Positions 18,001 to 60,789 of a stretch of DNA of 64,000 nt are shown piece by piece; position 1 is the stretch's first letter; each line of letters opens with the position of its first letter. The stretch is from Ulva prolifera (Eukaryota > Chlorophyta > Ulvophyceae > Ulvales > Ulvaceae). The stretch covers positions 2,786,513 through 2,850,512 of the forward strand of contig CM041199.1 in NCBI GenBank assembly GCA_023078555.1, in the 5' to 3' direction. The position numbers and the translations under genes were made by a program. A model generated the notes under the pieces. The model saw only the letters and a program-made list of their open reading frames with translations. It searched no databases and had not been told where the DNA came from.

Positions 18001-21000
18001 CAATCAAAGCCACAATGTTCATTGCCCTACATTTTATACATCATCCAAGTATGGCGTTCATTGGATGTGTCAATGTGCATTGGGACAACATCCCAACAGG
18101 GTCCATTATCTGACCTCACCCACAGCTAAAGTTGCCGCAAGCCCCAAGAACGCGTTTGAATTTAACACCGCAATCAAAGCCACAATGTTCATTGCCCTAC
18201 ATTATATACATCATCCAAGTATGGCGTTCATTGGATGTGTCAATATGCATTGGGACAACATCCCAACATGGTCATTTTCTGACCTCACCCAGAGCTAAAG
18301 TTGCCGCAAGCCCCAAGAACGCGTTTGAATTTGACACCGAAATCAAAGCCACAATGTTCATTGCCCTACATTATATACATCATCCAAGTATGGCGTTCAT
18401 TGGATGTGTCAATGTGCATTGGGACAACATCCCAACAGGGTCATTATCTGACCTCACCCACAGCTAAAGTTGCCGCAGGCCCCAAGAACGCGTTTGAATT
18501 TGACACCGAAATCAAAGCCACAATGTTCATTGCCCTACATTTTATACATCAGCCAAGTATGGCGTTCATTGGATGTGTCAATGTGCATTGGGACAACATC
18601 CCAACAGGGTCATTATCTGACCTCACCCACAGCTAAAGTTGCCGCAAGCCCCAAGAACGCGTTTGAATTTAACACCGCAATCAAAGCCACAATGTTCATT
18701 GCCCTACATTTTATACATCATCCAAGTATGGCGTTCATTGGATGTGTCAATTTGCATTGGGACAACATCCCAACAGGGTCATTATCTGACCTCACCCACA
18801 GCTAAAGTTGCCGCAAGCCCCAAGAACGCGTTTGAATTTGACACCGAAATCAAAGCCACAATGTTCATTGCCCTACATTTTATACATCAGCCAAGTATGG
18901 CGTTCATTGGATGTGTCAATGTGCATTGGGACAACATCCCAACAGGGTCATTATCTGACCTCACCCACAGCTAAAGTTGCCGCAAGCCCCAAGAACGCGT
19001 TTGAATTTGACACCGAAATCAAAGCCACAATGTTCATTGCCCTACATTTTATACATCATCCAAGTATGGCGTTCATTGGATGTGTCAATGTGCATTGGGA
19101 CAACATCCCAACAGGGTCATTATCTGACCTCACCCACAGCTAAAGTTGCCGCAAGCCCCAAGAACGCGTTTGAATTTAACACCGCAATCAAAGCCACAAT
19201 GTTCATTGCCCTACATTTTATACATCATCCAAGTATGGCGTTCATTGGATGTGTCAATGTGCATTGGGACAACATCCCAACAGGGCCATTATCTGACCTC
19301 ACCCACAGCTAAAGTTGCCGCAAGCCCCAAGAACGCGTTTGAATTTAACACCGCAATCAAAGCCACAATGTTCATTGCCCTACATTATATACATCATCCA
19401 AGTATGGCGTTCATTGGATGTGTCAATATGCATTGGGACAACATCCCAACATGGTAATTTTCTGACCTCACCCAGAGCTAAAGTTGCCGCAAGCCCCAAG
19501 AACGCGTTTGAATTTGACACCGAAATCAAAGCCACAATGTTCATTGCCCTACATTTTATACATCAGCCAAGTATGGCGTTCATTGGATGTGTCAATGTGC
19601 ATTGGGACAACATCCCAACAGGGTCATTATCTGACCTCACCCACAGCTAAAGTTGCCGCAGGCCCCAAGAACGCGTTTGAATTTGACACCGAAATCAAAG
19701 CCACAATGTTCATTGCCCTACATTTTATACATCAGCCAAGTATGGCGTTCATTGGATGTGTCAATGTGCATTGGGACAACATCCCAACAGGGTCATTATC
19801 TGACCTCACCCACAGCTAAAGTTGCCGCAAGCCCCAAGAACGCGTTTGAATTTAACACCGCAATCAAAGCCACAATGTTCATTGCCCTACATTTTATACA
19901 TCATCCAAGTATGGCGTTCATTGGATGTGTCAATTTTCATTGGGACAACATCCCAACAGGGTCATTATCTGACCTCACCCACAGCTAAAGTTGCCGCAAG
20001 CCCCAAGAACGCGTTTGAATTTGACACCGAAATCAAAGCCACAATGTTCATTGCCCTACATTTTATACATCATCCAAGTATGGCGTTCATTGGATGTCTC
20101 AATGTGCATTGGGACAACATCCCAACAGGGTCATTATCTGACCTCACCCACAGCTAAAGTTGCCGCAAACCCCAAGAACGCGTTTGAATTTGACACCGAA
20201 ATCAAAGCCACAATGTTCATTGCCCTACATTTTATACATCAGCCAAGTATGGCGTTCATTGGATGTGTCAATGTGCATTGGGACAACATCCCAACAGGGT
20301 CATTATCTGACCTCACCCACAGCTAAAGTTGCCGCAGGCCCCAAGAACGCGTTTGAATTTGACACCGAAATCAAAGCCACAATGTTCATTGCCCTACATT
20401 TTATACATCAGCCAAGTATGGCGTTCATTGGATGTGTCAATGTGCATTGGGACAACATCCCAACAGGGTCATTATCTGACCTCACCCACAGCTAAAGTTG
20501 CCGCAGGCCCCAAGAACGCGTTTGAATTTGACACCGAAATCAAAGCCACAATGTTCATTGCCCTACATTATATACATCATCCAAGTATGGCGTTCATTGG
20601 ATGTGTCAATGTGCATTGGGACAACATCCCAACAGGGCCATTATCTGACCTCACCCACAGCTAAAGTTGCCGCAAGCCCCAAGAACGCGTTTGAATTTTA
20701 CACCGCAATCAAAGCCACAATGTTCATTGCCCTACATTTTAAACATCATCCAAGTATGGCGTTCATTGGATGTGTCGATATGCATTGGGACAACATCCCA
20801 ACATGGTCATCTTCTGACCTCACCCGGAGCTAAAGTTGCCGCAAGCCCCAAGAACGCGTTTGAATTTGACACCGAAATCAAAGCCACAATGTTCATTGCC
20901 CTACATTATATACATCATCCAAGTATGGCGTTCATTGGATGTGTCAATATGCATTGGGACAACATCCCAACATGGTCATTTTTTGACCTCACCCTGAGCT

Positions 21001-21013
21001 CAAGTTGCCGCAA
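1..21013. repeat. 169-bp satellite array, left part
   Basis: About 124 head-to-tail monomers, mostly 169 bp, fill this stretch and run off the left edge of the window. Conserved blocks are GTTGCCGCAAGCCCCAAGAA, the CpG palindrome ACGCGT, and GGGACAACATCCCAACA. Two monomer types can be told apart: type A has TATATACATCATCC, CAATATGC and CATGGTCATTTTC; type B has TTTATACATCAGCC (or ATCC), CAATGTGC and CAGGGTCATTATC. In places they alternate as 338-bp dimers. Small indels occur, for example a 9-nt deletion in two monomers near 6,088 and 8,950. Many ~111-codon open frames appear only because the unit has few stops and its length is not a multiple of 3; they are not genes. The array is cut at 21,013 by a CACTA insertion. 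A centromeric, subtelomeric or other heterochromatic location is plausible but not shown. Confidence 0.98.
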
Positions 21014-21024
21014 CACTACAAGAA
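21014..21024 (+). repeat. Left terminal inverted repeat of element 1, preceded by CAA target duplication
   Basis: CACTACAAGAA starts directly after the satellite sequence GTTGCCGCAA. The CAA at 21,011-21,013 is the left copy of the 3-bp target-site duplication. The sequence matches the canonical CACTA/En-Spm terminus. Confidence 0.95.
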
Positions 21025-21500
21025 CGCCAGATAGGTGATAATGTGCATTTCGGCAACACATTAGCGGCTAAACACTGTGAAAGCTGTGTCGTGAGTTGGA
21101 TGAAATGTTCGGAGAATGCCGCTCCAATGTGTGTGAGCTGCACACTTTACGTCCTTGTGTGACCGGAATGTGCCATGTGCTAGGAACGGTCGACGCGCTT
21201 CCAATGTTGCAGATGTACACTCTGGCATGACGTGTGGCCGAACTGTCCTCGATGTACGTTGGAGTGTGCACGCGAGTACAAGAGATGTGCATGATGGCGT
21301 ATGCACGTGGACCGGAAAGATGTGCTGGTCGAGTACAGCTCGCGCATGGCGTGTACACCTTCATAAAAACCAGGCATCATTGACACATTCCAAGCACTGT
21401 TCATCCGAACGTGTGCTCGCCGGTTGCAGGCATCGTGTACTGTTGCGGGGCGATGATGTACACGTGGTGTACACGACTAGCAGTGTCATGAATTAATAAT
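21025..21500. promoter_or_regulatory. Left subterminal region of element 1 with TGTACAC motifs
   Basis: No convincing gene lies here. TGTACAC occurs at 21,214, 21,352, 21,457 and 21,468, along with many AATGTGC-like and TGCACA-like words. The same TGTACAC word recurs in the opposite subterminal region. In known CACTA elements, short subterminal repeats are the binding sites of an element-encoded TnpA-like protein; that role is inferred here. The short ORFs on both strands are treated as chance. From 21,500 to 21,770 nothing further was recognised. Confidence 0.55.
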
Positions 21501-21773
21501 AATTCGGTTCCACGGTGCGTCGGCAGGCCTGTTTACATCATCAATATCATATCATACATTATTCTTATGTTTAGCAAAGCATCGTGGTTCACAGCCCAGT
21601 CCACTGTTGCACTGAGCTTAAGCAACAGCCACCAGATGGCTGATCCCTCCGTCAAGGTGCCTACTCTATGGACGATGAAGCTCGTCGTAGAGAGATATCT
21701 TCTTCTCCATTAGACGGACCTTGGTCGCCTGCAGATGTAAGAGCGGTGACTGCACCTGACAGCTGTATTCAGA

Positions 21774-24318
21774 TTATGTGGCAAGATACAGCTCACACAT
21801 CCAAGGTGACACGTAGTTCACACTCAGGTCAGGACAGACCTGGAGCTCTGTGATCTTTTCCTGAGCTGTACGGATCTTGGGTTGGGTGTGGTTGCGTTTA
21901 CCAGCGCCTGGCTGCTTGAGTTCAAGGATGAGAGCTTCTTGTTCTTGAGTTAGCCGATTGGTAGCTTCGATGTCATGGTTCAGTCTAGCTATCTCACTTT
22001 CAGTGTACGACTTCCCATTCGTTCGCTCACTGTTTGGACCAGTTGAGCTGATCTGCATACGGTCTTGCACAGTATTTAGCCTGCCTATAGGCTGTGTGTG
22101 GTTCCGGGGTAGTGACACTGCAGCTGTATTGGGGCAAAGGTACATGCGGTCTTGCTCACCTGAACCTCGGGTGACTTGAGTGTAGCATCTTGATTTTCTG
22201 GCTCCATGGTGCTCAAAGGCAGTCCGAGTAGATCGTCCTCAGCCATGCCCATCATTCTCACTGCGTTATCGATTGCTACTTCTGTTACACCCGCATGTGC
22301 GAACGCATGGGTTGCTGCTGCTCGGTCGTTCTGGTGCAGCTCTGGCTGCTCTGTAGCTGGGTGGGCTAGCTGCTCACAGAACTGGGCTGGGGAGACATAA
22401 GACTTCTCGGGAGGGGGGTGTGGTGAGCCCCAGGCCTGCAGTAACAAGTCAACTGAGCTCAGCTGTGTATTGGGATGGCGATAGATACAAGGCACTTTGC
22501 CTGCAGCTGAGATGCGGGCACCTGCATTGCTGGCAGTCTGCTTTGATTCCATGCCGTGTTATGACTCGCCAAGTAACTTCCTTCAAAGTCGTTGCTGATA
22601 TCAATGCCTAAATCTGGACCTGCACAGTCAGGCTGTGGTCTCTTGCTGCCCACCTCGACAGGTTCCATTGGCCTCACGTTTGCTGTTGCGGGTGTTAATC
22701 CCATGAAACGGATTGTTTTTGATATGTCCTTCTCGACAACCACTGCTCTTGAGTTGTTGTGCAACGCCTGCAGGTTCTCAAGACATCATGCAAATTCCTA
22801 GTGCTCCATGAGAGCCAGTTATGACGTCAATTGCAGTGGTGAACACTGTGACTGCACGATGGTGGCGGATGGATCATACCGTTGACATGTTGCCTGCAAC
22901 GCCTGGGGGATAACTGCAGATTTGTGGCAGTTCGCACTGACCCGTCTGTAGCTCCTTCTGCATGGTTCCACTTCGGCTTCTCTGGTGTCTGTCCACTTCG
23001 TTCTAAGTCGTGCCTCGGACTTGGAGACAGAGGGGTGACCTCAAACTTGGGCAAGAAAATGTTCTTGGGCTCATCAGGGCGCCATGGCGGGTAGTGTCCA
23101 TCGTCGAGTGCCCACTCTAGTCTAGTCTTGCTCACTCGGCCTGGTGCTTCGGCAAGTCCCTCCACAGGCTCTGACCTGTATCATGATCGGCCCGATCATG
23201 GCGTCTAGTAGTATTAGGGTCAGCTGTGTAACATACCCGATACAAGCTCTCTGTGTTGCGACTATGAGCACACGTTCCTACGGATCACCAGCCGGTTGAC
23301 ACGTGCACAGCTGAATTCAGCAGTTTAATTGCGGACTCACCATCTTCCGGTCAAACTGCATGTGTAGTTCCGTCAAGTCTTTGCCTTGTCCCTTAGCCTC
23401 GGATGCTGCCTTTGGATCAGCCAGCAACACTTTGGTGAACTTCCGGATGCTGACGTTGTTGTTGCCCATGCGATCGAATACGACCGTCCTGCAAGGAACG
23501 GGTCATCGTACGATGTAAACACCTAGGCACCTACACTCTGCAGCTGTATAGCTGCTGAACGGCAGACACTGGCGAGGCCGTACTCTGCGAGTTTTTTGTC
23601 GCCTGTCTGCGATGTTGTGTAGGACTTCATCATTGCGTCCCACGCGACGGTCAAGTTCAAGATCTTCCGCCCTGCGTCCTTCTCTTCGTCTGTTGCGCCG
23701 TCTGCGATTGCCTGCAATGTCCGAAAATGCACCGTCGGGTGATCAATCACACGGGCCGGACTTGCCACTCCGACACTTCACATGGTAGTGTAGTGTTAGC
23801 CACACCTTCGGCGCGAACCCCTTCAGTGCTGTGATTGGTGTAGTTTGAAGCCAGCATCCATCAGGCGTGAGTTTGGGATCAAGCACCTTTTTTACCTTGG
23901 GGCACTTTCGATGTGCCTCGGGTAGGGCATTCAACGTCTCCCGAAGCTTAGCGCACATGTGAATACCACCACGCAGTTTCTCACCTTTGGTATCCACGGT
24001 CCTTGCGGTAGTGCCGTCGCTGACACATGACCGGCTAACCAGCTCATTGACACGGCTGGTCGTCGGCGGACTAGGCATCGTCAGGCTGGATACCGTCCAG
24101 ATGTTGCCGGGCAGCTCCGGCGCGACTGGATCGGCTCCCTCCGGCAGATTTAACGTGTCACGCAGCAATGCGCAAAATGCGTCGCCTGTGTAAATGGCAC
24201 TAGTCCCGCTCGGAGCCTTCGGACCCGCGGGAGCCACTCGGAATTTGTGTCGTTTCCATTCCAGTCCATCACTTTCATGGGGTACGTGTACACCACAGTT
24301 GACAAGTAACGTCAACAT
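21774..24318 (-). CDS. Spliced accessory gene of element 1 (TnpA-position, unknown family)
   Basis: I do not recognise the family. A chain of leftward open segments with plausible splice sites suggests one gene of about seven exons. The first runs from the ATG at 24,318 (starts MLTLLVNCGVHV) to about 23,790, where GTGAAG can serve as donor. The next begins near 23,714 after TTGCAG (AIADGATDEEKDAG). Later segments lie near 23,490-23,345, 23,165-22,830, 22,730-22,560, 22,550-22,190 and 22,085-21,850. The last is rich in E, Q, L and R and looks like a coiled coil (ARLNHDIEATNRLTQEQEAL). Exact exon junctions are uncertain and not all phases were resolved. It is transcribed divergently from the transposase, with 466 bp between the starts. 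Position and a C-terminal coiled coil match the leftward gene of element 2, and the stretch EWALDDGHY resembles AWAMEDGEY there. A role as DNA-binding partner of the transposase is inferred only. Confidence 0.45.
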
Positions 24319-24784
24319 GAAAGAGCCCTGTTAAGGTTCTTTGGTGTGACTGATGCTAAAGTCCTGGACGTGTTTACGGTCACCATCAAAGGATTTCAGA
24401 GTTACGGTCACCATGACTGCTACGTCTACAGGTAATGTGGCTCAGGACCACTGCAATTGGCTGGACCTCGGCGGCTGGTGTGCAGTATGATTCAAGCTGG
24501 TGTTCGGGCGCCTCAGATACCCCGAGGTTGATGGCGTTCATAATCAGACACCGCGGACATGGCGACAAGTGACCGGGTACCGACGAGACTACACGGCGCT
24601 GCATGCGACCACATGTCTGCGAAGCGTGTGATCGTTCGCCGCCATAGAACATCGCTTAATGTGGAACTCACTCTAAATCCAGCTGAGTTGTATGTTGTGC
24701 GCCATTGTCCGTTTCGATTGCAATCAGCCGCAGCAACCTGGCTGCAGAACTGGTACACATTCACACACTGTGGGTTGCATCACT
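24319..24784. promoter_or_regulatory. Divergent intergenic region of element 1
   Basis: This 466-bp gap separates the leftward accessory gene from the rightward transposase, so it should hold both promoters. The 13-bp word TTACGGTCACCAT occurs twice (24,374-24,386 and 24,402-24,414; 28-bp spacing), a candidate protein-binding direct repeat. No clear TATA box was seen. Confidence 0.4.
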
Positions 24785-27700
24785 ATGGACGCCGATCACG
24801 TAGATCCAGCACCGGGAGCCAAACGAGTTAGGCGGACAAATGATGCTATAGATGCTGTCCTGTCTGAGAAGGGCATTTTCAGTGATCCTTGTGCTGATGG
24901 CACTCAAAGGTACAGATGTGAGCACTGTCAGGGCTACTTTCGGTCCAGACAGGAAGGCGTATGCGTCGTGGCATGATTGCCCTTCCCTGAAGCCTGTCCC
25001 GCAGGACAATCAGGCCGATGGTGGCGGTGTTTTCGGCAGTGAATACATGGAATCTCCTTTGGAGTGGCCTGTACATGTGGATCAGGAGGATGGGTGCCTG
25101 CCACTCCTCATACCAGAATGCACAGAAGACTGGGCCGCAACTCTGCAGCCCAGTACTCCCGAGTACTACACCACAAGCGAGGCCGACTTGATAGCGGCGG
25201 GAAGAGAAAGCGCTGTTGAAGCTGAGTACGAGGTGTGACAGCTGTTGCATGACCATGAGTGGAACGTATGCTTGCCCGTTGGTATAGATGAATACGGCAT
25301 CCTGCAATTTGTATATGTATACGAATGCTATAGTACTGCAGGCACGTGTACAATAGCTATTAAAATTTTCACTATTGGACACGTGCCTGTTCATGCAGGA
25401 GCTGATCGGTCATCACGACTGGAGAGCTAGGGGTGGCCTGGAGGGGCTGGATACAGACGACGAGGATGAGCCTGATCAGGAGGGAGCAGCGATTGGGGCT
25501 GCAGTGGATGCACCTCATGCTGCACTAGCTCGCGCCATCGCAGGTGGGCCTGTGCCTGGTCAAGAACTACATGAGGCAGCTGCCCAACAAGGCGTGTACG
25601 AACCAGTGCCGGTCAGTGTACACCTAGCTCCAAGCCAAAGGAGAGTGCAGCAACCGGCGCTGGAAGCCGAGCCAGGACGTCGTTTAAAGAAGGGTACAGG
25701 GGCCTGGCTGTGTGAGCACCGGGGTGACCCCATTGCCCCGGGGCATACTGTCACAGTCGTACAGGCTTGTTATTGGTTGGCATCGATGAAGAATGATCAC
25801 AGGGTCACCGACACTGTGATCGACCAGTTCTGTGCAATGATGCACCACCTCATCTTGCCAGCGGACAACCTGTACCCTGCATCGTACCATATGGTCAAGG
25901 CTGTATTGGATGTTGAATCCAGCAAGGCGTGTACTAGGCACATATGCGACAAGTGCTGGACCGTGTTCCCAGATATGCACTCAGCTCTTTACCCTGGAAA
26001 TGTAGATGCAGTGTGTGCAGCTGAAGGTTGTGGCAACCGCCGCTTCGATGTGTCCGACACTGGAGTGGTTTTGCCGAAGCGGAATATCTACTGTTTTGAT
26101 GTGCGATCAACCGTCCTGGACCTCTTGGATCCCATCCTGGAGGACCTTGACACCTATCGGCAACAGCGTGAACAGGCTTACAAAGACCCGGCATCTTTTT
26201 TCAGGAGCCCCGCTGGTCAGTATGTCGACGCTGCTATTGGCCACAAATTGAGTGCTCCGTCGGAAGACGAAATTGTAATCCCTTTCACTATGGGTATGCT
26301 CCCTATGGCGACGCCTTCGGGTGGAGACTAGCTATATACAGGCAGCTGCAGCACTATCCGATCAATGCTGCACATGCAGGGGGTGATGGCGTCCAGATCT
26401 ACACCAACAAGGTGTACGGTACGCTGGCCTGTGGACTGAAGTTGACAGATGCACCAGAAGGGTTGCAAGCCAAGAATATCACATGGTCTCCTGTGAGCGT
26501 CGTGCAAGGCCCTACCGAGCCGGGGTCCTACCACGATGTCATGGGCCCTATCTTGGAGTTTTTTGAGAAGCATGACCCAGGTGTGACCTTAGCAATACTG
26601 CCATCCACACCACACCAAGTCCCTGCACATCACCGGGGCTTCCGGACAGCTGCATGATGGAACTCACGGCTGACATCGCGACAGCTGCAGGCCGCCCAGG
26701 GTCCACTCCGCTCTGGGTTAATGTGGGTGGTCCAAGGCTGCTGAAGGTCTGGCCTGTATTGGTATCAGCAGAAGGAGACATCCCGTTCATGACGAAATTA
26801 ACAGGAGGTTTACATCATACGGCCGGAAATGCTTGCTTTGCGTGTGCATTTTCAGGGGCGCACAACCACGAAGCCAACACAGTCCGGTGTGTTCTTGTGG
26901 CCATGGCCATGCATGGCCATGCATCCAACAATTAACTAGCCAGTTAACTTCCCACATGTGCTGCTCCTCGACGTGTATGTCTTGCCAAGTGCACCATCCA
27001 AACCGGAGTGCCTGCATATGCAGGTGGATGGGGTTTGATGCTGATGTAACACAAAGAGTGCCGTGTTATGCCGCTGCTGGCAGCTGTGCAGCCTTCGCGG
27101 GCCAAACTATGCACCCTCTAGAGCAGATAGGTGTAGACCGCTCAGGGGAAAAACCCCGCATGCCACTTGGCTACCTGCAGAAGGATGATGGGCGCTTCCT
27201 CGCCAGGACAGCCTTCACAGATCCCATCGCTGTGGGATCAGATACGTGGCTGTCAGACAATGTGCTGAAGTACAGCGCTACCGAGATCCTCTTACGAGGC
27301 AAGAAGGCCAAACTCCTCCAGGACCAAGTGTTGCATCCAACACTCAAAGCAGTGGAGGATATGGACCAAAACCAGCGCGCTGAATGGGTCAATCAGCAGC
27401 AGAAGGATCTGGGTGCTCGGGGAGAGCCCATGTTCCAGACGCTGTCGTACGTGAAGTGAGTCCCTCCATCTGATGTTCCTGTGTGCTGCCACCCGGAAGC
27501 AGGTTCCAGCAGCTGCGCTATCTCATTGACTGGATCCGGATGTGCTTGCAGCCCATGTCACTTCTTTCGGTACGGCATCGCACACCTCTTCTTGCTTGGC
27601 ATCCTGAAGGACTTCTGGAGGATGTGGCTGGGGAAAGTGTCTGGAAAGGGGTGCGTCCTCCCTACCTACATCCGGACGCATCTCACCAAGAAAGGAGAAG

Positions 27701-29295
27701 ACATTCTTACTACCGAGCTTTTCGGGAAGCCATACACTGATATAATTCGGTGTGTGACAACCTTCGTGGCCGTGCTTGCATAAAAAATTGTGCCTGGTGG
27801 GATTAGCCCTGTAACAACTAATGTGGCTGCCTCGCGTTGCAGGTACCGAGGCCTCTGGATGATGGAAGAGTGGCTTGCTTTCACCGAGACATTTTCTATG
27901 TTCCTACTGAACGATCTACCATGGAAACGGGAGCACCTCCACCTGAAAAAGGTGTTTGACGAGCAGTGGTCACTACTGCGGTCATCTGTGCTTTACTTCA
28001 TGAAATGGCATGCTGGTCAACACAATGAAGAGCGCCTAGTACAGGCTCAGAAAGATCTTCTGGAATATGGGAGACTTGCTGAACAGGTGCTTGTCAGCCT
28101 TGAACTCACGTTAGGGATGTTCAAATTCACACATACAAGACATTGTGACCACGAATGTGCCATCATGCAGCTGGCATTACAAGTCTGCATACGCGTGCAG
28201 ATTTTCGGTGGGAAGTTCATAACCACCTTCAAGCTGCACCTGGCTGCCATGCACTTGGCGGATCAAGTGAGGGCTTGCGGACCAGGATACACCTGGACCG
28301 AGTTCTGGGTGGAGCGCATGGTCCAACTTGTGAAGAGGATGGTGAAGTACCGCAGCACCGCCTACCCCGAGTTGTTGTTTGTGCATGACTGGCTACTGAC
28401 GCTGGCGTGCCGCCGGGTCAAGTTGTCCCCAGACGGTTGTCACTGTGTGTCATTGTACGAGGCATTGCGGGCCGTAAAGAAGCGCCGCCTGCTATCTCGT
28501 GATGAACCCCTCCCGGGGCAGGCGTTGCTGCTAGGTGCACCAAAGAAGGCTGAAGACGCCGAAGAGGCGCAGGTGCTGCACATCCCTCCAATGAGTGCCA
28601 CAGACGAAGACATTGTACTGCAAGGTCTGCCACAACTTCTGTTCGAGGACACAACCCTCCTGGTAGACGGGTGGCCCGTATTCAAAGACAATGCGGAGGA
28701 CCAGCGGCCAGGGCTTATTTTGCATGAACTTGGGCTTCAGGGTCCCCTTGGGGCCGGCAAGGAAGGGGTGAAGGTGGTGCTTAAAAAATTCACACGGGCA
28801 GACCTCACCACCGGGGACACTGTGAGCAGTGCACAGTGCAACTCACAACGACGGAAGAACAATCAATGGTTCCTCATTCAGTATTCCGTGGAGCATGCAA
28901 ATGGCCGCCAGGAGAAGAAGGTGTACGTGGGTCAATTTTTGTATTTTGTGCATGCTGCGTTTACATGCAACATGCTGCCCGAGGGAGCAACACGGGCGGG
29001 AAGTGCTCGTCACCATCCATCTGATTTGAGGCTGGGGGTGGCCAATTTGTACAGTAGTGAGGACCAGCACGGTCCGGGGGTCAGGGCTGCAGACCCGGAA
29101 ATAGGCAGACTGCATGAATTTGTGAAAGTGGCCAGGTTGGACCCCTCCCGAGCCGGCAGCACGTTCGAGGGCGTGTTTGTGTTGGATTTGAGAACAATAG
29201 ACTCACAGGTGGTCCCGACCCGTGAGAGGGACGACACCCGGTATTTCTGTGTGTCTTCAAAATTGTCTGGTAGGTATGCCGGTGTAAAACGGTAG
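24785..29295 (+). CDS. Tnp2-type CACTA transposase, eight exons
   Basis: Exons deduced by matching element 2: 24,785-25,232; 25,399-26,293; 26,380-26,580; 26,691-26,886; 27,024-27,455; 27,552-27,749; 27,843-28,086; 28,201-29,295. All introns are GT-AG with consistent phase, giving about 1,235 residues. Domain order: N-terminal zinc finger (CEHC...WHDC), acidic linker, KGTGAW domain, a Cys-rich knuckle (RHICDKCW...CAAEGCG), then GGDGVQIY and EGDIP, which look like the first two catalytic aspartates of the RNase H-like core. Next come PCHFFRYGIAHLFLLGILKD, a DUF4218-like helix region (KLHLAAMHLADQVRACGP), and a C-terminal domain with VFVLDLRTIDSQVVP. This is the CMC/CACTA Tnp2 architecture and should cut and join the element ends. 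The finger is split between two frames near 24,950, implying a 1-nt indel or sequencing error. The 501-codon terminal frame hides a 114-nt intron (28,087-28,200) that is absent from the element 2 protein. Confidence 0.8.
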
Positions 29296-29365
29296 TGTAT
29301 GAAGCAGAAATTTACACTTGTTCAGGGGCTGACACCGACAGTCCAGTTTTTCGGCCATTGGGAAT

Positions 29366-31033
29366 GTGATGCATCTGTGCTTGAGTCCCGGGTCGTGCAG
29401 CAAGAGGGCTGCTCGGGAGAGACTGCTACAGTTGTGGATGGTGCCAGCATTTTGCCAAACACGCACACTCGTGCAACAGTGCAATCCTGACAGGACTCTC
29501 AAGCTATCATATTAATTCTTTCACCGATCTACTGACAAACATATCCACTGCATTCCTAGCCAAGCTTCACGGCTCGATGCATTTGCAGACACCAGCTCTG
29601 GCAGCTTGTGTCTGGACTAAATAATGGGAGGCTGCAGCCCTCCCGGGAGAGCAGACATCGATTTTTTTTGGTGGCCCACAAACCGCCCATTTGTGTACGC
29701 ATTCGTTGTGTGATGCATCTGTGCTTGAGTCCGGGGTCGTGCAGCAAGAGGGCTGCTCGGGAGAGACTGCTACAGTCGTGGATCGTGCCAGCATTTTGCC
29801 AAACACGCACACTCGTGCAACAGTGCAATCCTGACAGGACTCTCAAGCTATCATATTAATTCTTTCACCGATCTACTGACAAACATATCCACTGCATTCC
29901 TAGCCAAGGTTCACGGCTCGATGCATTTGCAGACACCAGCTCTGGCAGCTTGTGTCTGGACTAAATAATGGGAGGCTGCAGCCCTCCCGGGAGAGCAGAC
30001 ATCACAATTTTTGGGTGGCCCACAAACCGCCCATTTTTGTACACATTCGATGTGTGATGCATCTGTGCTTGAGTCCCGGGTCGTGCAGCAAGAGGGCTGC
30101 TCGGGAGAGACTGCTACAGTCGTGGATCGTGCCAGCATTTTGCCAAACACGCACACTCGTGCAACAGTGCAATCCTGACAGGACTCTCAAGCTATCATAT
30201 TAATTCTTTCACCGATCTACTGACAAACACACCCACTGCAATCCTAGCCAAGGTTCACGGCTCGATGCATTTGCAGACACCAGCTCTGGCAGCTTGTGTC
30301 TGGACTAAATAATGGGAGGCTGCAGCCCTCCCGGGAGAGCAGACATCAAAATTTTTGGGTGGCCCACAAACCGCCCATTTTTGTACACATTCGATGTGTG
30401 ATGCATCTGTGCTTGAGTCCCGGGTCGTGCAGCAAGAGGGCTGCTCGGGAGAGACTGCTACAGTTGTGGATTGTGCCAGCATTTTGCCAAACACGCACAC
30501 TCGTGCAACAGTGCAATCCTGACAGGACTCTCAAGCTATCATATTAATTCTTTCACCGATCTACTGACAAACATATCCACTGCATTCCTAGCCAAGGTTC
30601 ACGGCTCGATGCATTTGCAGACACCAGCTCTGGCAGCTTGTGTCTGGACTAAATAATGGGAGGCTGCAGCCCTCCCGGGAGAGCAGACATCGATTTTTTT
30701 TGGTGGCCCACAAACCGCCCATTTGTGTACGCATTCGTTGTGTGATGCATCTGTGCTTGAGTCCGGGGTCGTGCAGCAAGAGGGCTGCTCGGGAGAGACT
30801 GCTACAGTCGTGGATCGTGCCAGCATTTTGCCAAACACGCACACTCGTGCAACAGTGCAATCCTGACAGGACTCTCAAGCTATCATATTAATTCTTTCAC
30901 CGATCTACTGACAAACACACCCACTGCAATCCTAGGCAAGGTTCACGGCTCGATGCATTTGCAGACACCAGCTCTGGCAGCTTGTGTCTGGACTAAATAA
31001 TGGGAGGCTGCAGCCCTCCCGGGAGAGCAGACG
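29366..31033. repeat. 344-bp tandem repeat, about 4.9 copies
   Basis: GTGATGCATCTGTGCTTGAG recurs near 29,366, 29,709, 30,053, 30,397 and 30,741, a period of 342-344 bp. Copies are almost identical; copies 2 and 5 share GATTTTTTTTGGTGG, while copies 3 and 4 have CAATTTTTGGG-like variants. The array begins about 70 bp after the transposase stop, so the transposase 3' UTR probably runs into it. The small ORFs on both strands repeat with the unit and are not genes. Confidence 0.95.
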
Positions 31034-31540
31034 TGAAGCACCATGCTACAGAAGCACCATGCTATCCACAGAATGTCCTTTATACAACCGGGATTAAGCA
31101 CACTTACCTGTGGATTTTCGCCCGTGCCCTGGTGGCCCCCGTTTTGAATGCCCCCCTGCTGTGTACTTCGTCTAACCGGTCAGGCCCGCACCACAACACG
31201 AATGGCAGCCGCGTGAGCCCACCGAGTTTTGCAACGACACGCACATTGGGTGTATGGCGGTGAAACCAGGCGCCTGGGCACGAATACGGTCCGTAGAGGA
31301 AGCCCACGAAGCACAGCAGCAAGAAGCTGGAGACAATAAGACAGTTGCAACACAGGGACAACAACGAGATGCCACACGCACTCGGCAATATTAATACTGG
31401 ATTGCGTCAGCTTTTAGATGAAAGATGTCGAATCTCGCGCGCACTTCTACCTTGAGCGTGGCGACCACCGCGAGTTGCACTGTGCTGCTAGACACTTTCT
31501 CGAAATGCTCGAGGAGCGCGATGGGAAACTGAAAATATAT
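31034..31540. other. Stretch without a recognised gene
   Basis: Between the 344-bp and 150-bp arrays I see only short ORFs on both strands, including a 94-codon leftward hydrophobic frame (31,388-31,104). Nothing supports a gene or an RNA. Confidence 0.5.
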
Positions 31541-31975
31541 CGCTGTCCGGGTATTGGAAGATAGATTGTTGTCAAGGACTGTAATTGATAACGTAAAATC
31601 TTTAATTGATTCCGGACAGCTCCACTTTTTTTTCGGACACTGGTGTCAGCGCCAGATCGTGCCAGCCCAGCCGGTCGACGGATAAAGTATCGCTGTCCGG
31701 GTATTGGAAGATAGATTATTGCCGAGGACTATAATTAAGAACGTAAATTCGTGAATTCATCCCGGACAGATCCACATTTTTTCCGGACACTGGTGTCAGC
31801 GCCAGATCGTGCCAGCCCAGCCGGTCGACGGATAAAATATCGCTGTCCGGGTATTGGTAGATACAGTATTGCCGAGGACTATCATTAAGAACGTAATTTC
31901 GTGAATTGATCCCGGACAGATCCACATTTTTTTCGGACACTGGTGTCACAGCGCCAGCTCCGGTAGGCCCAGCAC
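31541..31975. repeat. 150-bp tandem repeat, three copies, upstream of the dioxygenase-like gene
   Basis: CGCTGTCCGGGTATTGG starts at 31,541, 31,691 and 31,841, an exact 150-bp period. Each unit holds inverted words: CGCTGTCCGG at its left, CCGGACAG in the middle, and CGGACACTGGTGTCAGCG at the right, so each copy can fold on itself or present paired binding sites. The third copy ends in a diverged form about 35 bp before the ATG at 32,011. It therefore occupies the promoter region of the next gene; regulatory use is inferred. Confidence 0.9.
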
Positions 31976-32010
31976 AGTCACGAGCTTGAACACAGCGTGG
32001 GGCAGTACAG

Positions 32011-34152
32011 ATGGGCAAGGCGTCTTGTAGATCAAAAAGGGTATGCCTGGCCCACTTAGGAACCACTTGCCAACGGTGCCAACTGGATAATGGGTACAAA
32101 AGAGTGCTGGGCGACGTTGACTCGCCATACTTCCCGGTAGAGTTTCCGTGGGCGGGGGGGTTCGGGTGGGCTGTGCCCACAAGGGCGGGGCACATGCGCC
32201 TCCAGGCCTTACGCCGGCAGCACGTTAGTAGGCACTTTGTCAATTGTAGGCATAGTATGTCAAAAACTTTTGAAGCCAGCGGCTTTTTCCAGAAGCATTT
32301 TACTTTGCACAGTGGCAAAGAGCCCCCGCTCGTGCCTGTGGTGAGTGCAGCCGGTGGTGGCTCAAGTCCCGTGCCAGGTGAGGAACAAGCACCGACTGTT
32401 GTGGACGATCCACCGGCACCGTTGGTACACGGTGGCAATGGTGTGTACCGGGCGGGGTGGTCGAGCTGTAGTAGTGAGACTAGTGGCAGCTGCAGTAGTG
32501 GGGTGCTAGAAGTGAGCACCCTCGACGAGTTGGCTAGTGCGCGTGCTCATTGTGATGTTCACAACATCGGGCCATGCGTACGGTATCATGTACGTCACAT
32601 GAGCCCGCTACACGTGAGCACTGTGGGTAGAATCCAAGCATTCCACGACCAGCTGGCGGGACACAGTCTGGTGCAATTGCCTGTACGAGACTTCGTGGTG
32701 ATTTTCGTGACACCTGTTGGACGACAGGAACATGATGGTATGAGTCACGGATACCACGACACGGACAGCGACGGGGCATGGGCAGTGCCAGATGATAAGC
32801 GGACCACCTACATCCTTAGAGCAGTGGATGACCCCCAACTCCATGACATATTAGCAGTGGTGGGTGAAACTCCAGGCTCACCGATGTATCTTCGCCCCGA
32901 GGTATGATTATGTCCTTTTTGCACTTTGGTGTTTTGTGCAATCAGTGTTCTAATGAGTTTGCGCATTGATCAGCAATGTTGTAGTGCATCAATGTAGCCG
33001 TAGTCACCGGTCAAGGAGCACACGACAACGCACCGTATGCACAAAGCAATTGATTTGTCAACATACTACATTGCGTTGTCTACAGCAATAGACAATTGTG
33101 TACACATGTGTAGATGGCAGAAAAGCTCATCAAGATCGAACGGGCATGTCCAAAAGGAGTCTCAGGAGCAGGACAAAACACGCGTGGCGAAGGTAAGATG
33201 GTGGGAGGGGGGTTGAATAACCCGATGGGTGGAGGCAAAGGCCGTCAAGCGAGCATACCCAATGTAGCACGTGCTGATGACATCGATCCGGTGACTGTCG
33301 CGGCTCTACTGGTACGCTCGCGCTTAATGTTGACGTATATAACAAGCGCATAGCCATATCATTGGCAAAATTATTCATTTGTACAAATCATGTTGGCAGT
33401 TACCATTTGCAGTGGTTGTGGAACACAACGTTGTGTTCCTACCAATTCGCGCTGTGCAGGCGGGAGTGTGGAACATCGGTGTCCTTAATTTTAACAAAAC
33501 ACCAGGGGCGTCATGGCTCGCTTTAATACCAATTGTTTGCGGGGCGCTTGCCATCGCTACCGATGTCAGTACTGAGTGGACAGCGACCGAGCTGAATTCG
33601 CCATGTCTCGGCGCGTACCCTTCGCGGGCGATGACCATTTTGACGGACGAGAGTCAGGTGAGATCCGTGAAGCAACACCTGGACTTGTATGACCGCCCTG
33701 AAGGGGGGCTCATCATGTGGCTACAAACAGGCCCTTGCCTCGGCTACCCCAAAAGTGTGTCGGGCGGGTTTTTTTGGATGAGTGGGGTGGGGATCCGTCT
33801 TGCTATTACGCCACAACGCTATGTGTGGCTGCAAACCGGAGTCGTCCGGCATGGCACGACAGGTGGGGCAGAGTTTGTCGACTCTAATGCAGTGCGGGTA
33901 GGCATGGCATTTTATGCCAACGTGCGATCGGTGTCGGCACTCCACAAAGCGGTGCAGCAAAATCCCAATGCGCAGGCAGCGAGGAGTGTGAACGGGTTCC
34001 TGAAACCCAATAAGACATGTGGCAAGAAGCAAAGTGGCAGTAAGCCTAGGGTAGATCGTAAGACCTCTGAGTATAACAAGAGCGGAGTTGATGATAACTG
34101 TGCGTCTACAAACGTACATCAAACCAGGTCAAGGACAACCACTCTCTTGTAA
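32011..34152 (+). CDS. Putative 2-oxoglutarate/Fe(II) dioxygenase, possibly TET/JBP-like, carried by element 1
   Basis: Three exons fit with consistent phase: 32,011-32,901 (donor GTATGA), 33,114-33,311 (acceptor TGTAG, donor GTACGC) and 33,400-34,152 (acceptor TTGGCAG), giving about 613 residues. The C-terminal half has the double-stranded beta-helix signature: HLD (H456, D458) in KQHLDLYDRPEGG, then GGFF, then a distal VRHGT (H514), and an arginine (R529) in RVGMAFYAN. That is the H-x-D...H metal triad with a 2-oxoglutarate-binding Arg. The H-x-D-x-x-D-x-P spacing recalls fungal and algal TET/JBP enzymes, which oxidise 5-methylcytosine or thymine in DNA. The N-terminal ~300 residues (Cys/His-rich start, CLAHLGTTCQRC) are not recognised. 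A Lys/Arg-rich tail (KKQSGSKPRVDRK) could touch DNA. The dioxygenase fold is fairly well supported; the DNA substrate is inference, and a protein or other hydroxylase remains possible. More 3' exons may exist. Confidence 0.6.
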
Positions 34153-35249
34153 GATTAGCATATGCAATGACCCCAAGTACAATGCAGCATTGCGCGCGTT
34201 ACTAATGTCACGAACTATGAATGCCATGGAGCCCGTATTGCAAATTGTTTATGGTCTTGTGGAATCGTCGGTCACCTTAGCCGGTATGTCACAAAATTGT
34301 GGAGGTAAGCGAGTGTGTTCCGCTACAGATCCTACCACGAGAACGCATTCTGTGTCTTTGCGCAGTGGTGTTCTACACAATCGGCAAGAATTGCTTTCAC
34401 TCTTCACCATTCATTGTCATACCGATGTGAACAGTGTTGCTACTGCAATTGAGGGCGCTGTACATGTTCTCCGACTCCGGCATACTTTTCTGGCATGTTG
34501 TCACACTCATTGCATTATTACAGACGTCCAACACATATTCTTTTTACCAGTGATCTAGATACAATCACATGAATTTGCAAGCAGACACCGAATGACTATG
34601 GGAACATAACTCTATCCTATAAGAGTGGTATTGGCACCCGGCATGCCACTGGCAGGGAAACTCTTCACCTGCACAGGCATTGCGATTTGTCGTGTGGCGA
34701 GGCCAAGGGGACACACTGATGCAGCACACTGTAGAGATGGAAATCCATATGGCAAATTCACAGCATGATCCACATGGCCCTCAGCTACAGGCTATAGCTA
34801 GAGGTATAATGTGGCCACTACAAAGGCGATGACTGCTGCAGGATGTAGCGGCTGCAACATGTAGCTGCCACAGGCAATAGAGGGCGATACCTCTACCGAG
34901 CTCCTCGAGGATCGCAGCCAGCGTCAGAATAACCCACTTGATCATGAGATGTGAATCACCACAATCACGTGCAATGGATTTACTGCCAGCGTCTCTTTCG
35001 CTGCTAGCTACGCCGGTCTGCTGTGCGCAAATTCAGAAGGACAAGCGCAGGCTTTTCACAACGCCATACATTTTCAAGCATATGGATTTTACTGAAGGTA
35101 CCAAAGCTGAGCTTGCGTTATACCTGTGTTCATACTCCAGCCGTGGGACTCGACGAGCTCAACACAGAGCTCCAGCACTGAAACGGTCCAAGCTAGAGCA
35201 GTACAAAACCCCTGCGCTGCTGCGCTTCACCCGAAAATACATCGCAAAG
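34153..35249 (+). other. Region without an assigned gene; possible further exons near 34,190-34,460
   Basis: Just downstream of the dioxygenase-like frame, one reading frame gives a Cys/His-containing stretch (NYECHGARIANCLWSCG) that ends at a good donor (GAG|GTAAGC near 34,303). Another open segment lies near 34,320-34,450. These could be 3' exons of the same gene or chance. From 34,560 to 35,250 nothing was recognised. Confidence 0.25.
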
Positions 35250-35695
35250 AGCAATGGACATGTCGAGAGCTATCGTGTACATTACTCACGGCGTGTGCAC
35301 GTGCAGAAGATGCGCACGACAGTCGTGGCGTGGGGCACAAAATGTGTTGGAGCTGTGCATCCGGCATGTACACGCCAAAGGAGTGTGGATGCGCGTTCAA
35401 TTGCCACTCGACCGGTGGTGGCTGAGGAGGCACGGTGTGCACGACGAGGACATGTTGCCGGCAGATGATGTGCTGTTCGTCGGAGCGTCCAAGCGCGGTC
35501 GCGGCGTGCACATTCCGTGCATTGAGGTGCGCTGCAGGTGTACACCGCGAGAACACTTCGGTGACACATCCCGCATAAATTTCACTAACACATTCCAGCC
35601 AGCCCTGGAATGTGCCTGCAATGTGCGTGTAATGTCCCCGAATGCGGCAGCGGGGCAAACGTGTGTCCGGCATGTACACTGCCGCATGCCTACCA
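35250..35695. promoter_or_regulatory. Right subterminal region of element 1 with TGTACAC motifs
   Basis: TGTACAC occurs at 35,367, 35,539 and 35,673, mirroring the left subterminal region, and the sequence has the same AATGTGC/GTACA-rich texture. A long open frame crosses this region and runs into the satellite; since it crosses the transposon end, it is not taken as a gene. The likely role is binding of the transposition complex (inference from En/Spm biology). Confidence 0.5.
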
Positions 35696-35706
35696 TTCTT
35701 GTAGTG
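35696..35706 (-). repeat. Right terminal inverted repeat of element 1, followed by CAA target duplication
   Basis: TTCTTGTAGTG is the exact reverse complement of the left 11-bp end. It is followed by CAA (35,707-35,709) and then by satellite sequence that resumes in register. Confidence 0.95.
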
Positions 35707-38700
35707 CAAGCCCCAAGAACGCGTTTGAATTTGACACCGAAATCAAAGCCACAATGTTCATTGCCCTACATTTTATACATCATCCAAGTATGGCGTTCAT
35801 TGGATGTGTCAATGTGCATTGGGACAACATCCCAACAGGGTCATTATCTGACGTCACCCACAGCTAAAGTTGCCGCAGGCCCCAAGAACGCGTTTGAATT
35901 TGACACCGAAATCAAAGCCACAATGTTCATTGCCCTACATTTTATACATCAGCCAAGTATGGCGTTCATTGGATGTGTCAATGTGCATTGGGACAACATC
36001 CCAACAGGGTCATTATCTGACCTCACCCACAGCTAAAGTTGCCGCAGGCCCCAAGAACGCGTTTGAATTTGACACCGAAATCAAAGCCACAATGTTCATT
36101 GCCCTACATTTTATACATCAGCCAAGTATGGCGTTCATTGGATGTGTCAATGTGCATTGGGACAACATCCCAACAGGGCCATTATCTGACCTCACCCGGA
36201 GCTAAAGTTGCCGCAAGCCCCAAGAACGCGTTTGAATTTTACACCGCAATCAAAGCCACAATGTTCATTGCCCTACATTTTATACATCATCCAAGTATGG
36301 CGTTCATTGGATGTGTCAATTTTCATTGGGACAACATCCCAACAGGGTCATTATCTGACCTCACCCACAGCTAAAGTTGCCGCAAGCCCCAAGAAAGCGT
36401 TTGAATTTAACACCGCAATCAAAGCCACAATGTTCATTGCCCTACATTATATACATCATCCAAGTATGGCGTTCATTGGATGTGTCAATATGCATTGGGA
36501 CAACATCCGAACATGGTCATTTTCTGACCTCACCCAGAGCTAAAGTTGCCGCAAGCCCCAAGAACGCGTTTGAATTTAACACCGCAATCAAAGCCACAAT
36601 GTTCATTGCCCTACATTTTATACATCATCCAAGTATGGCGTTCATTGGATGTGTCGATATGCATTGGGACAACATCCCAACAGGGCCATTATCTGACCTC
36701 ACCCGGAGCTAAAGTTGCCGCAAGCCCCAAGAACGCGTTTGAATTTTACACCGCAATCAAAGCCACAATGTTCATTGCCCTACATTTTAAACATCATCCA
36801 AGTATGGCGTTCATTGGATGTGTCGATATGCATTGGGACAACATCCCAACATGGTCATCTTCTGACCTCACCCGGAGCTAAAGTTGCCGCAAACCCCAAG
36901 AACGCGTTTGAATTTGACACCGAAATCAAAGCCACAATGTTCATTGCCCTACATTATATACATCATCCAAGTATGGCGTTCATTGGATGTGTCAATGTGC
37001 ATTGGGACAACATCCCAACAGGGCCATTATCTGACCTCACCCACAGCTAAAGTTGCCGCAAGCCCCAAGAACGCGTTTGAATTTTACACCGCAATCAAAG
37101 CCACAATGTTCATTGCCCTACATTTTAAACATCATCCAAGTATGGCGTTCATTGGATGTGTCGATATGCATTGGGACAACATCCCAACATGGTCATCTTC
37201 TGACCTCACCCGGAGCTAAAGTTGCCGCAAGCCCCAAGAACGCGTTTGAATTTGACACCGAAGTCAAAGCCACAATGTTCATTGCCCTACATTTTATACA
37301 TCATCCAAGTATGGCGTTCATTGGATGTGTCAATGTGCATTGGGACAACATCCCAACAGGGTCATTATCTGACCTCACCCACAGCTAAAGTTGCCGCAAG
37401 CCCCAAGAACGCGTTCGAACTTAACACCGCAATCAAAGCCACAATGTTCATTGCCCTACATTATATACGTCATCCAAGTATGGCGTTCATTGGATGTGTC
37501 AATATGCATTGGGACAACATCCCAACATGGTCATTTTCTGACCTCACCCAGAGCTAAAGTTGCCGCAAGCCCCAAGAACGCGTTTTAATTTGACACCGAA
37601 ATCAAAGCCACAATGTTCATTGCCCTACATTTTATACATCAGCCAAGTATGGCGTTCATTGGATGTGTCAATGTGCATTGGGACAACATCCCAACAGGGC
37701 CATTATCTGACCTCACCCGGAGCTAAAGTTGCCGCAAGCCCCAAGAACGCGTTTGAATTTTACACCGCAATCAAAGCCACAATGTTCATTGCCCTACATT
37801 TTATACATCATCCAAGTATGGCGTTCATTGGATGTGTCAATGTGCATTGGGACAACATCCCAACAGGGTCATTATCTGACGTCACCCACAGCTAAAGTTG
37901 CCGCAGGCCCCAAGAACGCGTTTGAATTTGACACCGAAATCAAAGCCACAATGTTCATTGCCCTACATTATATACATCATCCAAGTATGGAGTTCATTGG
38001 ATGTGTCAATATGCATTGGGACAACATCCCAACATGGTCATTTTTTGACCTCACCCTGAGCTCAAGTTGCCGCAAGCCCCAAGAACGCGTTTGAATTTGA
38101 CACCGAAATCAAAGCCACAATGTTCATTGCCCTACATTTTATACATCATCCAAGTATGGCGTTCATTGGATGTGTCAATGTGCATTGGGACAACATCCCA
38201 ACAGGGTCATTATCTGACGTCACCCACAGCTAAAGTTGCCGCAGGCCCCAAGAACGCGTTTGAATTTGACACCGAAATCAAAGCCACAATGTTCATTGCC
38301 CTACATTTTATACATCAGCCAAGTATGGCGTTCATTGGATGTGTCAATGTGCATTGGGACAACATCCCAACAGGGTCATTATCTGACCTCACCCACAGCT
38401 AAAGTTGCCGCAGGCCCCAAGAACGCGTTTGAATTTGACACCGAAATCAAAGCCACAATGTTCATTGCCCTACATTTTATACATCAGCCAAGTATGGCGT
38501 TCATTGGATGTGTCAATGTGCATTGGGACAACATCCCAACAGGGCCATTATCTGACCTCACCCGGAGCTAAAGTTGCCGCAAGCCCCAAGAACGCGTTTG
38601 AATTTTACACCGCAATCAAAGCCACAATGTTCATTGCCCTACATTTTATACATCATCCAAGTATGGCGTTCATTGGATGTGTCAATTTTCATTGGGACAA

Positions 38701-41700: not shown

Positions 41701-41720
41701 CACTAGAAGAATGGCGACAC
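41701..41720 (+). repeat. Left terminal inverted repeat of element 2
   Basis: A CACTA terminus directly after satellite ...CCAAGTAT. It pairs with 61,528-61,547 with one mismatch (A/G at position 7). The TAT before it is the left target duplication. Confidence 0.9.
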
Positions 41721-48700: not shown

Positions 48701-49401
48701 CTGTTCCGACTGCCAGAGGATGTCGTCAAGGCGATAGCTGCCAGAGCGCCCCACATCATGCAGACCTCTCTTTTCAAGAAGGTGTACACCGACATCACCA
48801 AGTGCGCAGTCCCATCGCCTGCACACCCTGCTCGCATCCGAGGCTGCGCCATTTTTCGGACTGTTACTTGGACACAGGAACCATGTGCACTCCTGTTGAA
48901 GCATCCCGTCTGAGTCAGGGTGACTGTTTGCGTAGGCACCGCAGTCGCTGGCTCATGGAAGACTGGCTGGCCTTCACCGAGACATTCTCGCTGTACCTCC
49001 TGCACGATCTCCCGTGGAAAGCCTCCGAGAAACGCATACGCAGCGTGTTTGAGCAGTCGTGGGGGCTCCTGCGAGCAGGGGCCCTCTACTTTCTCAGATA
49101 TGAAGAGGGTCAGCACACACCGGCCCGAATCACGGAAGCACAGCGATTGCTGCTGCAGTACGCCAAACTGGCGGAAGAGACGTTTGAAGGGGCTGCTCTC
49201 AGCACGTACAAGCTGCATCTGGCGGCCAGTCACCTACCGGATCAGGTGAGGTGCTGCGGTGCATCCTTCTTCAGTCTTGAATTCTGGATCGAGCGGATGG
49301 TCCAGCTCCTGAAGAGACTGATCAAGTATCGATCGACTCGTTGCCCTGAACAAGTATATGTGAGCGATGAACTGCTGCGCCGCACATGTATGCGGCTGCT
49401 A

Positions 49402-51166: not shown

Positions 51167-52304
51167 GGCTGCTACATGATGCAGCTTCACTGCCTGCTGC
51201 CATGACCTCACTGTCGGATGCCATAGCGACGGAAAAACGCCGGCGGGCACGAACTCGCAATGGAAGATCCGCTGACGGGGATCAATCAGTTGACAGCGAC
51301 CGGATCACCGGCAGGGTCGTCGGGGTGGGCAGGGCTCCTGCCCTGTCTGAGGCTGCAGAGGTCCTCCCCCTTGACTTCGTGGGAGATGAGCTGACAGGGT
51401 TGCCGTACCTCCTCTTCCATCAGGATTCCCTACAGGATGAGGGCTAGCCAACTCACCGTCGCCTGGGGGTTGGATATGCACGTCGCGCGGCCATCCACCG
51501 AGCTCTGGGCCTGAAGGTGGATGGCACTGTTGATGAGGCTCGCCGTGAGGGCACAGTGACACTTATGAAGTTCCACCAGATGCATTCCCGCGTTGCAGAC
51601 ATGTTCAGCTGCGCGCAACAGTGTACGCAAGGGAAGAAAGACAACAAGTGGTGCCTCTTGAGGTACCTCATTGGGGGGGACGGGGACGGGGGTGGCGGGA
51701 CAGTGACGTATTTCGTCGGGGAACTGCAGTATTTCACGAGGGCGTGTCTGCAGCCCCGGGATGGCGTGTGTTGCGTGTCATGTGTTGCGGAACCAAACCC
51801 ATTGTACCTGGGGGTTGCTGATCTGTATAATTGCACCTTGCCAGCCACCCCGGGAGCCCGCGCCCCAGATCCCGTGTTGAAACGTCCCCCTGAGTTTTTC
51901 GGTGTGGCGGGTGCAAACAGGGGGTCTCGGGCATATGTCGGCAGATACGTCGTACACTTGGACGCAGTTCCATGCCAGTTAGTTCCAGTCCGGAGGGGTG
52001 CACAAAATGTGCAGTATTGGGCCACTGCGAACAAGGCTTCTGGCCGAACTGTGTAAAGCGCTGGGGTCATCGGGTGCTCTCTCCTTGATACCAATACGGC
52101 ACCTGCTACAGCAGATAAGTTGGCGCCCAGTCTCCGGCACTGTATGGCCACCGGTGCATTATCGGCAGCAGCCAACAGTCATTCGCCAGACGTGGAGCGC
52201 GTGTAGCCACTTTCGCACCTGCTTCGAGCATCGGCGCCGGCTCCGACATCATGATACCGGCACTGCGGTTCGATTAAAGATATGTTGATAGTTAAATGTA
52301 ATAC

Positions 52305-60549: not shown

Positions 60550-60789
60550 CGCTAATACGTATGTCAATATACTACTAGCGAAAGCGGTCACTGGTGACGA
60601 GATGCGCAGATCTGCAACGGAGTTCCAAGTCACTTCGACCATATCGAATTGCGATGCCAGGTAAGCTACGACCGCCAGCGATTAACCGTATCAGACACAC
60701 AATCCTCCATTCGTACATTTCATGCAGCACGACGCCCCGATTGCAACGGCACCTGCGCACTCCCGCGGAGCACGATGACAGCACCCCGT

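Follow-up and report, generated by a model that had tools for sequence, protein, structure and literature searches.

A CACTA transposon family of Ulva prolifera with a cargo gene for a candidate divergent TET/JBP-type dioxygenase

The window, that is, the whole stretch of 64,000 bp that was analysed (C4:2786513-2850512 within a searched genome of 88.9 Mb in 44 contigs), contains a complete CACTA/EnSpm transposon, here called element 1, lying within a 169-bp satellite array (Table 1). Besides a transposase region of several ORFs, element 1 holds two tandem arrays and a three-exon gene for a candidate dioxygenase (the dioxygenase gene). An earlier note had placed this gene at 32011-34152 on the transposase strand inside intact element ends; coordinates and strand were right, and the TIRs and the CAA duplication were exact. 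From its ends and duplications, the membership of element 1 in the CACTA group is firm. A Pfam scan gave a weak match to DUF4218 in the transposase ORF 27784-29295, below the 27-bit cut-off (E 3.9e-4, 20.7 bits); this domain is linked to CACTA transposases (Transposase_21/DUF4218 type). Probes made of the terminal 501 bp gave at least 41 left-end and at least 59 right-end matches in the genome, with paired ends observed at other sites, and the last transposase ORF of element 1 gave at least 148 matches. On its right side, the copy at C1:1.66 Mb terminated at the base corresponding to the end of element 1.

Table 1. Features of element 1 and its surroundings, in window positions. Residue numbering of the exon 3 frame, from which the motif coordinates were taken, starts at 33457.
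Feature	Position	Strand	Remark
169-bp satellite array hosting element 1	1..21013; restarts past element 1, reaching 41700
TSD CAA, left	21011..21013
Complete CACTA/EnSpm element, 14,693 bp	21014..35706	+	TIRs, 3-bp TSD, satellite broken on both sides
Left TIR CACTACAAGAA	21014..21024	+
Transposase region, several ORFs (25357-26331, 26172-26657, 26722-27459, 27784-29295)	25357..29295	+
344-bp tandem array, 4.8 copies	29365..31032		homologous array in sister CACTA family (L235)
150-bp tandem array, 2.8 copies	31537..31957		directly upstream of dioxygenase gene
Dioxygenase gene exon 1, 297-residue N-terminal region, no known domain	32011..32901	+	open; kept in divergent copies
Dioxygenase gene exon 2, 198 bp, phase 0	33114..33311	+	length and phase shared with L012
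Dioxygenase gene exon 3, HLDxxD...RHGTT...R-x5-Y, TET/JBP-like catalytic core	33460..34152	+
H of HLD	33676-33678	+
D of HLD	33682-33684	+
D at HxD+3	33691-33693	+
Distal H	33850-33852	+
R (H+15)	33895-33897	+
Y (R+6)	33913-33915	+
Right TIR TTCTTGTAGTG	35696..35706	-
TSD CAA, right	35707..35709

Several further features were observed in the window. Minus-strand ORFs of 154-195 aa lie at 21774-24330 within element 1, opposite to the transposase, and could be a second gene of the element; the one scanned (23743-24330) had no Pfam match. A CACTA-like start, CACTAGAAGAA, was observed at 41701, exactly at the satellite end, and a second CACTA-like element seems to begin there. Its region 46536-55504 contained a stretch weakly resembling DUF4218 (48451-49518, E 0.08) and, slightly below cut-off, a fragment of Ulp1 (Peptidase_C48; 54968-55504). 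Two tandem arrays, one of 64 bp (43642-44124) and one of 93 bp (60772-61042), both contained the palindromic unit GAGTGGCCATTCGGCGAATGGCCACTC.

The dioxygenase gene has three exons with GT-AG introns, all in phase 0, and encodes 593 aa on the strand of the transposase. This model is supported because exon 2 of a divergent copy, L012, is likewise exactly 198 bp long and flanked by identical phases. Exon 3 had 39 matches in the genome, 8 of them at 96-100% identity and the others older, broken or divergent, and exon 1 had 33. Both exons were kept in two divergent groups, the L012-type copies with 43% identity in each exon and the L019-type copies with 33% for exon 1 and 44% for exon 3; another divergent copy, L030, is shorter. 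No Pfam match above cut-off was found for exon 1, with MIase sub-threshold at E 0.025.

Complete elements with both ends and the dioxygenase gene were found at six sites, including the window copy, with lengths from 14,584 to 19,347 bp. The ends CACTACAAG...CTTGTAGTG, with TIRs beginning CACTA, were present in all six, as were 3-bp duplications (CAA in the window, then GAT, ATG, GCT, AGG and AGG). Each of the five further elements contained both the dioxygenase gene and the transposase region, although in the C8 copy the transposase match was split into three pieces. Exons 1 and 3 were open in five of the six copies, and a frame change was observed in exon 1 of the copy at C4:6.42 Mb. Because six elements with ends and matching duplications carry the gene at six sites, the gene is a true cargo of the CACTA element, and element and gene have spread as one unit. 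The gene's occurrence in other CACTA-ended copies, raised in the earlier note, is thus borne out by five complete elements. The link that it drew to the satellite was not supported, since the 100-bp flanks of the five other complete copies had no satellite signature.

Among the matches listed, 22 sites had a related transposase (64-81% identity), and at 20 of these no dioxygenase match was found within 20 kb, the two exceptions being C1:9.95 Mb and C1:12.01 Mb. The gene is therefore dispensable for such elements and is an accessory module. At the second of these exceptions (L009), the dioxygenase copy is 84-88% identical to that of element 1 and the decayed transposase adjoining it only 65%, which looks like an exchange of transposase and dioxygenase modules between families. 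A gene-less element at C7:5.587-5.593 Mb (L235) shares its 344-bp array and its right end with element 1, and between these it contains a 315-aa ORF of another kind (L235:2570-3517) with no Pfam match. The L235-type CACTA family is a case of cargo swap at the dioxygenase position.

Dense clusters at C1:3.52-3.74 Mb and C6:7.66-7.81 Mb held most of the L012- and L019-type copies. The flanks of one L012-type and one L019-type copy contained nothing substantial like element 1 besides the dioxygenase. At C1:3.594-3.618 Mb the L019-type gene occurred twice (L019 and L234/L239), at a distance of about 19 kb, and the two copies shared an identical stretch of at least 3,561 bp, which suggests a recent duplication; an ORF beside one L019-type copy gave a weak AAA/P-loop ATPase match below cut-off (E 0.0025). 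The ORF family of L234:174-1250 (minus strand), with 44 matches, mostly co-clustered with the divergent dioxygenase copies at C1:3.56-3.77, C6:7.6-7.8 and C2:1.86-2.07 Mb, and it also occurred on the small contigs C13-C39. The ORF itself had no Pfam match, and the family looks like a cluster-specific repeat, perhaps centromeric.

The earlier note had recognised in exon 3 an HLD, a distal His 56 residues further on and a downstream Arg. The distance was confirmed when counted from the Asp of HLD (58 residues from the first His), and the signature was kept across loci. HxD and HGTT were observed in one frame at 20 of the 30 exon 3 loci scanned, the others being shortened, broken or shifted. All 20 had Asp at HxD+3, and 17 had both Arg at H+15 and Tyr at R+6, including L022, which has a stop between the motifs; in L024, L027 and L030 the frame or the homology was lost between the distal H and R. 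By sequence comparison, this pattern of HxD and distal His is not attributable to chance. Several of these positions coincide with those published for characterised enzymes. The N4 of 5-methylcytosine (5mC) is read at HxD+3 (CMD1 Asp350, TET2 Asn1387, NgTET1 Asp234), the ring is stacked at R+6 (CMD1 Phe416, TET2 Tyr1902, NgTET1 Phe295), and the cofactor Arg (TET2 Arg1896, NgTET1 Arg289) is aligned with CMD1 Arg410, as given in the accessible part of PMC7854593; CcTet has Arg385, Phe391 and Arg393 at identical spacing (accessible part of PMC11040006). In exon 3 the matched positions are HxD, Asp at HxD+3, the distal His, Arg at His+15 and Tyr at Arg+6. At R+8, where CMD1 Arg418 contacts O2 and TET2 His1904 and NgTET1 His297 contact N3 (PMC7854593, same part), the element family has Asn, Lys or Ala and does not match the His/Arg of characterised TETs. 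Leu or Ile was found there in 21 of the 23 TET/JBP proteins compared, so His/Arg at R+8 is not universal. The distance from distal His to Arg was +15 in the TET1 fragment, +10 in NgTet1 and +14 to +16 in the phage set.

Profile comparisons were made with an alignment of the element family built from 6 of the 39 exon 3 matches (window, L012, L018, L019, L024 and L030, of which L024 and L030 are short). The TET/JBP reference set consisted of Naegleria Tet1, in a sequence identical to PDB 5cg8/4lt5 over 185 residues, and 9 of 91 phage records; a broad TET set of 23 proteins added 13 of 80 marine loci. As controls we used a narrow P4H-type set (phage 2OG-FeII_Oxy_3, 13 of 80 loci) and a single AlkB sequence. 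Aligned by hhalign with the reference set, the family scored 33.0 (Prob 61.2, E 8e-5 for a single comparison), and the alignment paired HxD with HxD, distal His with distal His and Arg with Arg. The core alone scored 32.1, against a mean of 11.7 (s.d. 2.4, maximum 20.9) for 400 column shuffles and 10.1 when reversed. As a yardstick, the human TET1 fragment and Naegleria Tet1 scored 31.8 and 40.3 against 22 phage proteins. The score of the family fell to 28.1 (Prob 36) with the broad set and to noise with single TETs (NgTet1 14.7, TET1 fragment 15.3).

Searches of sequences with a profile gave weak values in both directions. A TET HMM run on the 636 window ORFs placed exon 3 second (E 0.14), and the broad set placed it third (E 0.42). 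With the family HMM on 2510 viral ORFs, four phage TET proteins were observed at ranks 1, 2, 6 and 7 (E at least 1.3), and no marine TET gene was among the first 12 ranks; none of 43 pattern stretches was a viral relative of the family. In the PDB, the reference profile matched two known TETs, CcTet and CMD1, no better than at E 1.4-1.6, and an HHpred E of 1.4 is reported for fungal PE-type proteins against CMD1 (accessible part of PMC12730594). Because known TETs and these fungal proteins also score at such values, the weak scores of exon 3 are not unusual. Pfam Tet_JBP (PF12851) did not match the exon 3 core. At a cut-off of 34.9 bits this profile is an unfair gate, because known TET/JBP sequences also fall below it (12.6 for the 185-residue NgTet1 fragment, 26.1 for a phage thymidine hydroxylase). 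On the host genome PF12851 gave 0 matches, and control genomes also gave 0, so this result is uninformative on the absence of host TETs. Nothing significant was found for the core in Pfam, NCBIfam or PHROGs (best E 0.19, 0.2 and 0.08, respectively), and best matches to an unrelated family, named in the earlier note as an outcome against its reading, were thus not observed. Profile matches of the family in the PDB (41 sequences) were nitric oxide synthase chains, one of them named 'subunit A', with a best E of 0.13, and were rejected as being at chance level. A TET/JBP-type core, as first proposed, gave the best fit at both profile and residue level, and exon 3 quite probably encodes a divergent member of the TET/JBP dioxygenases.

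The likeness could instead be that of an enzyme from a different branch of the Fe(II)/2-oxoglutarate dioxygenases (prolyl-hydroxylase-like, AlkB-like or new), whose substrate would be RNA, protein or an alkylated base rather than 5mC. The broad TET set scored 35.8 against the P4H-type set, above its score against the element family, and the distance of the family is therefore superfamily-like; the residue at R+8 and the unmatched Pfam Tet_JBP point in the same direction. Against this, the family scored 28-33 with the TET/JBP sets and reached only noise with the P4H-type set (15.4) and AlkB (10.4), modest controls that are weaker than the TET set, and its Asp at HxD+3 and Tyr at R+6 fall on the base-reading positions of TETs described in PMC7854593 (accessible part). 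We regard an enzyme of another branch as unlikely, at a probability that still deserves some weight.

Less probable still is a JBP-like thymine hydroxylase, which would make a hypermodified thymine instead of acting on 5mC. The reference set does consist mostly of phage proteins, one of them annotated as a thymidine hydroxylase. The mycobacteriophage and related TET/JBP proteins (L033, L035-L042) share with exon 3 the H-x-D, the distal His, an Arg at H+14 to +16 and the Tyr at R+6, in a comparison that covers the core alone. They differ in residing in phage genomes and in the residue at HxD+3, which was Asn in 21 of the 22 phage proteins, L039 being the exception; the distal His context was HGVT in most of the phage set and HGTT in the element family. 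The constant Asp of the family at HxD+3 is shared with CMD1 and NgTET1, and in the docking of the CMD1 study thymine does not fit this Asp (accessible part of PMC7854593). Asp at this position may therefore favour cytosine over thymine, as an indication only, since TET2, a 5mC enzyme, also has Asn.

Selection on the reading frame was judged against L009. Over exons 1 and 3 the window copy differed from it by 123 changes, 52 synonymous and 71 nonsynonymous, a nonsynonymous share below the 77% expected without selection (P 2e-6; L009 alone was used and is itself decayed). Near-identical copies, with few changes, gave dN/dS values of 0.30-0.67 for exon 1 and 0.25-0.47 for exon 3, and the broken old copies L010 and L011 gave 0.53-0.82. 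By this comparison with L009, the frame of the dioxygenase gene appears to be under constraint. It is very improbable that the domain is a passively carried remnant, devoid of catalysis or with a structural role alone, since its catalytic residues are kept over subfamilies about 40% identical and its frame is constrained against L009, even with several copies broken and most of the related transposases listed having no dioxygenase nearby.

We therefore consider it likely that this CACTA family carries as cargo the gene of a 593-residue protein with a divergent Fe(II) dioxygenase of the TET/JBP type as its C-terminal part. In the proposed mechanism, the N-terminal region would bring the enzyme to element DNA. 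Fe(II) would be bound by HLD...H, and the Arg at H+15 would bind 2-oxoglutarate or, as in CMD1, ascorbate. A cytosine base would be flipped into the site, stacked on the Tyr at R+6 and read at N4 by the Asp at HxD+3, and the candidate enzyme would oxidise 5mC. With 5mC on the element removed or converted, silencing by host C5-methyltransferases would be lifted and the transposase could be expressed. It is reasonable to infer, as for the fungal cases, that 5mC oxidation may serve against silencing. The host genome contained 8 C5 DNA methyltransferase matches at several places; it also gave 38 light-harvesting chlorophyll protein matches (best E 1e-49) and 4 rbcS matches, which form one pair on each of two large contigs as though an intron divided the gene. 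These matches mark the host as a photosynthetic eukaryote whose plastid is of the green type.

Fungal KDZ transposons carrying TET/JBP genes were reportedly described by Iyer in 2014. They are also mentioned in the introduction of Kojima (2025, PMC12730594); like element 1 they combine a DNA transposon with a TET/JBP gene, and they differ in transposase superfamily. The earlier note knew of KDZ elements alone and took a CACTA element with such a gene as new. Both views are out of date, given that TET/JBP genes are described, among many transposon types, for EnSpm families of rust fungi (Puccinia and relatives) and of Agaricus bisporus in the accessible part of PMC12730594, where escape from methylation silencing is also proposed for TET/JBP-carrying transposons. 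Compared by description rather than by sequence, these fungal elements resemble element 1 in their 5'-CAC..GTG-3' ends, 3-bp duplications and TET/JBP-type gene, and they have fungal hosts and dioxygenases of the PU and PE types. Element 1 differs from them in its algal host, in an enzyme beyond the reach of Pfam Tet_JBP and in a 300-residue N-terminal region of unrecognised kind. Among the titles listed by a literature search on transposons with TET/JBP genes, with most subscription papers outside its range, the fungal report alone concerned such transposons and no algal case appeared; in a Chlamydomonas comparative genomics paper (PMC8226300) and an Amoebidium paper (PMC11244446), 'JBP' occurred in the reference lists alone. 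The pairing of CACTA and TET/JBP is already known from fungi; here it would take an algal, divergent form.

The algal enzyme CMD1, the 5mC-modifying TET homologue of Chlamydomonas, resembles exon 3 in having HxD...H, Asp at HxD+3, an Arg aligned with the 2OG-binding one and an aromatic residue at R+6. It differs in the spacing between the two His (52, versus 57-58 in the element family), in the distance from distal His to Arg (13 versus 15) and in its Arg at R+8, and the accessible part of PMC7854593, from which these values come, gives no sign of transposon-cargo status. A tentative broader reading, possible rather than likely, is that a separate algal TET/JBP lineage was adopted by mobile DNA, namely by CACTA and at least one unrelated kind of repeat (the clusters at C1:3.5-3.77 Mb, C6:7.6-7.8 Mb and C2 near 2.09 Mb). 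Its capture would be independent of that in fungi, and the enzyme would counter methylation by the host, perhaps using ascorbate like CMD1.

Should the enzyme prove active, the capture of DNA-demethylating enzymes by transposons would not be peculiar to fungi and would also occur in a photosynthetic lineage, one that already has an ascorbate-using TET in CMD1 of Chlamydomonas. With gene-carrying and gene-less related elements present in many copies in one genome, the family would offer a natural system for the anti-silencing idea, which could be read from 5mC and its oxidised forms on both kinds of element.
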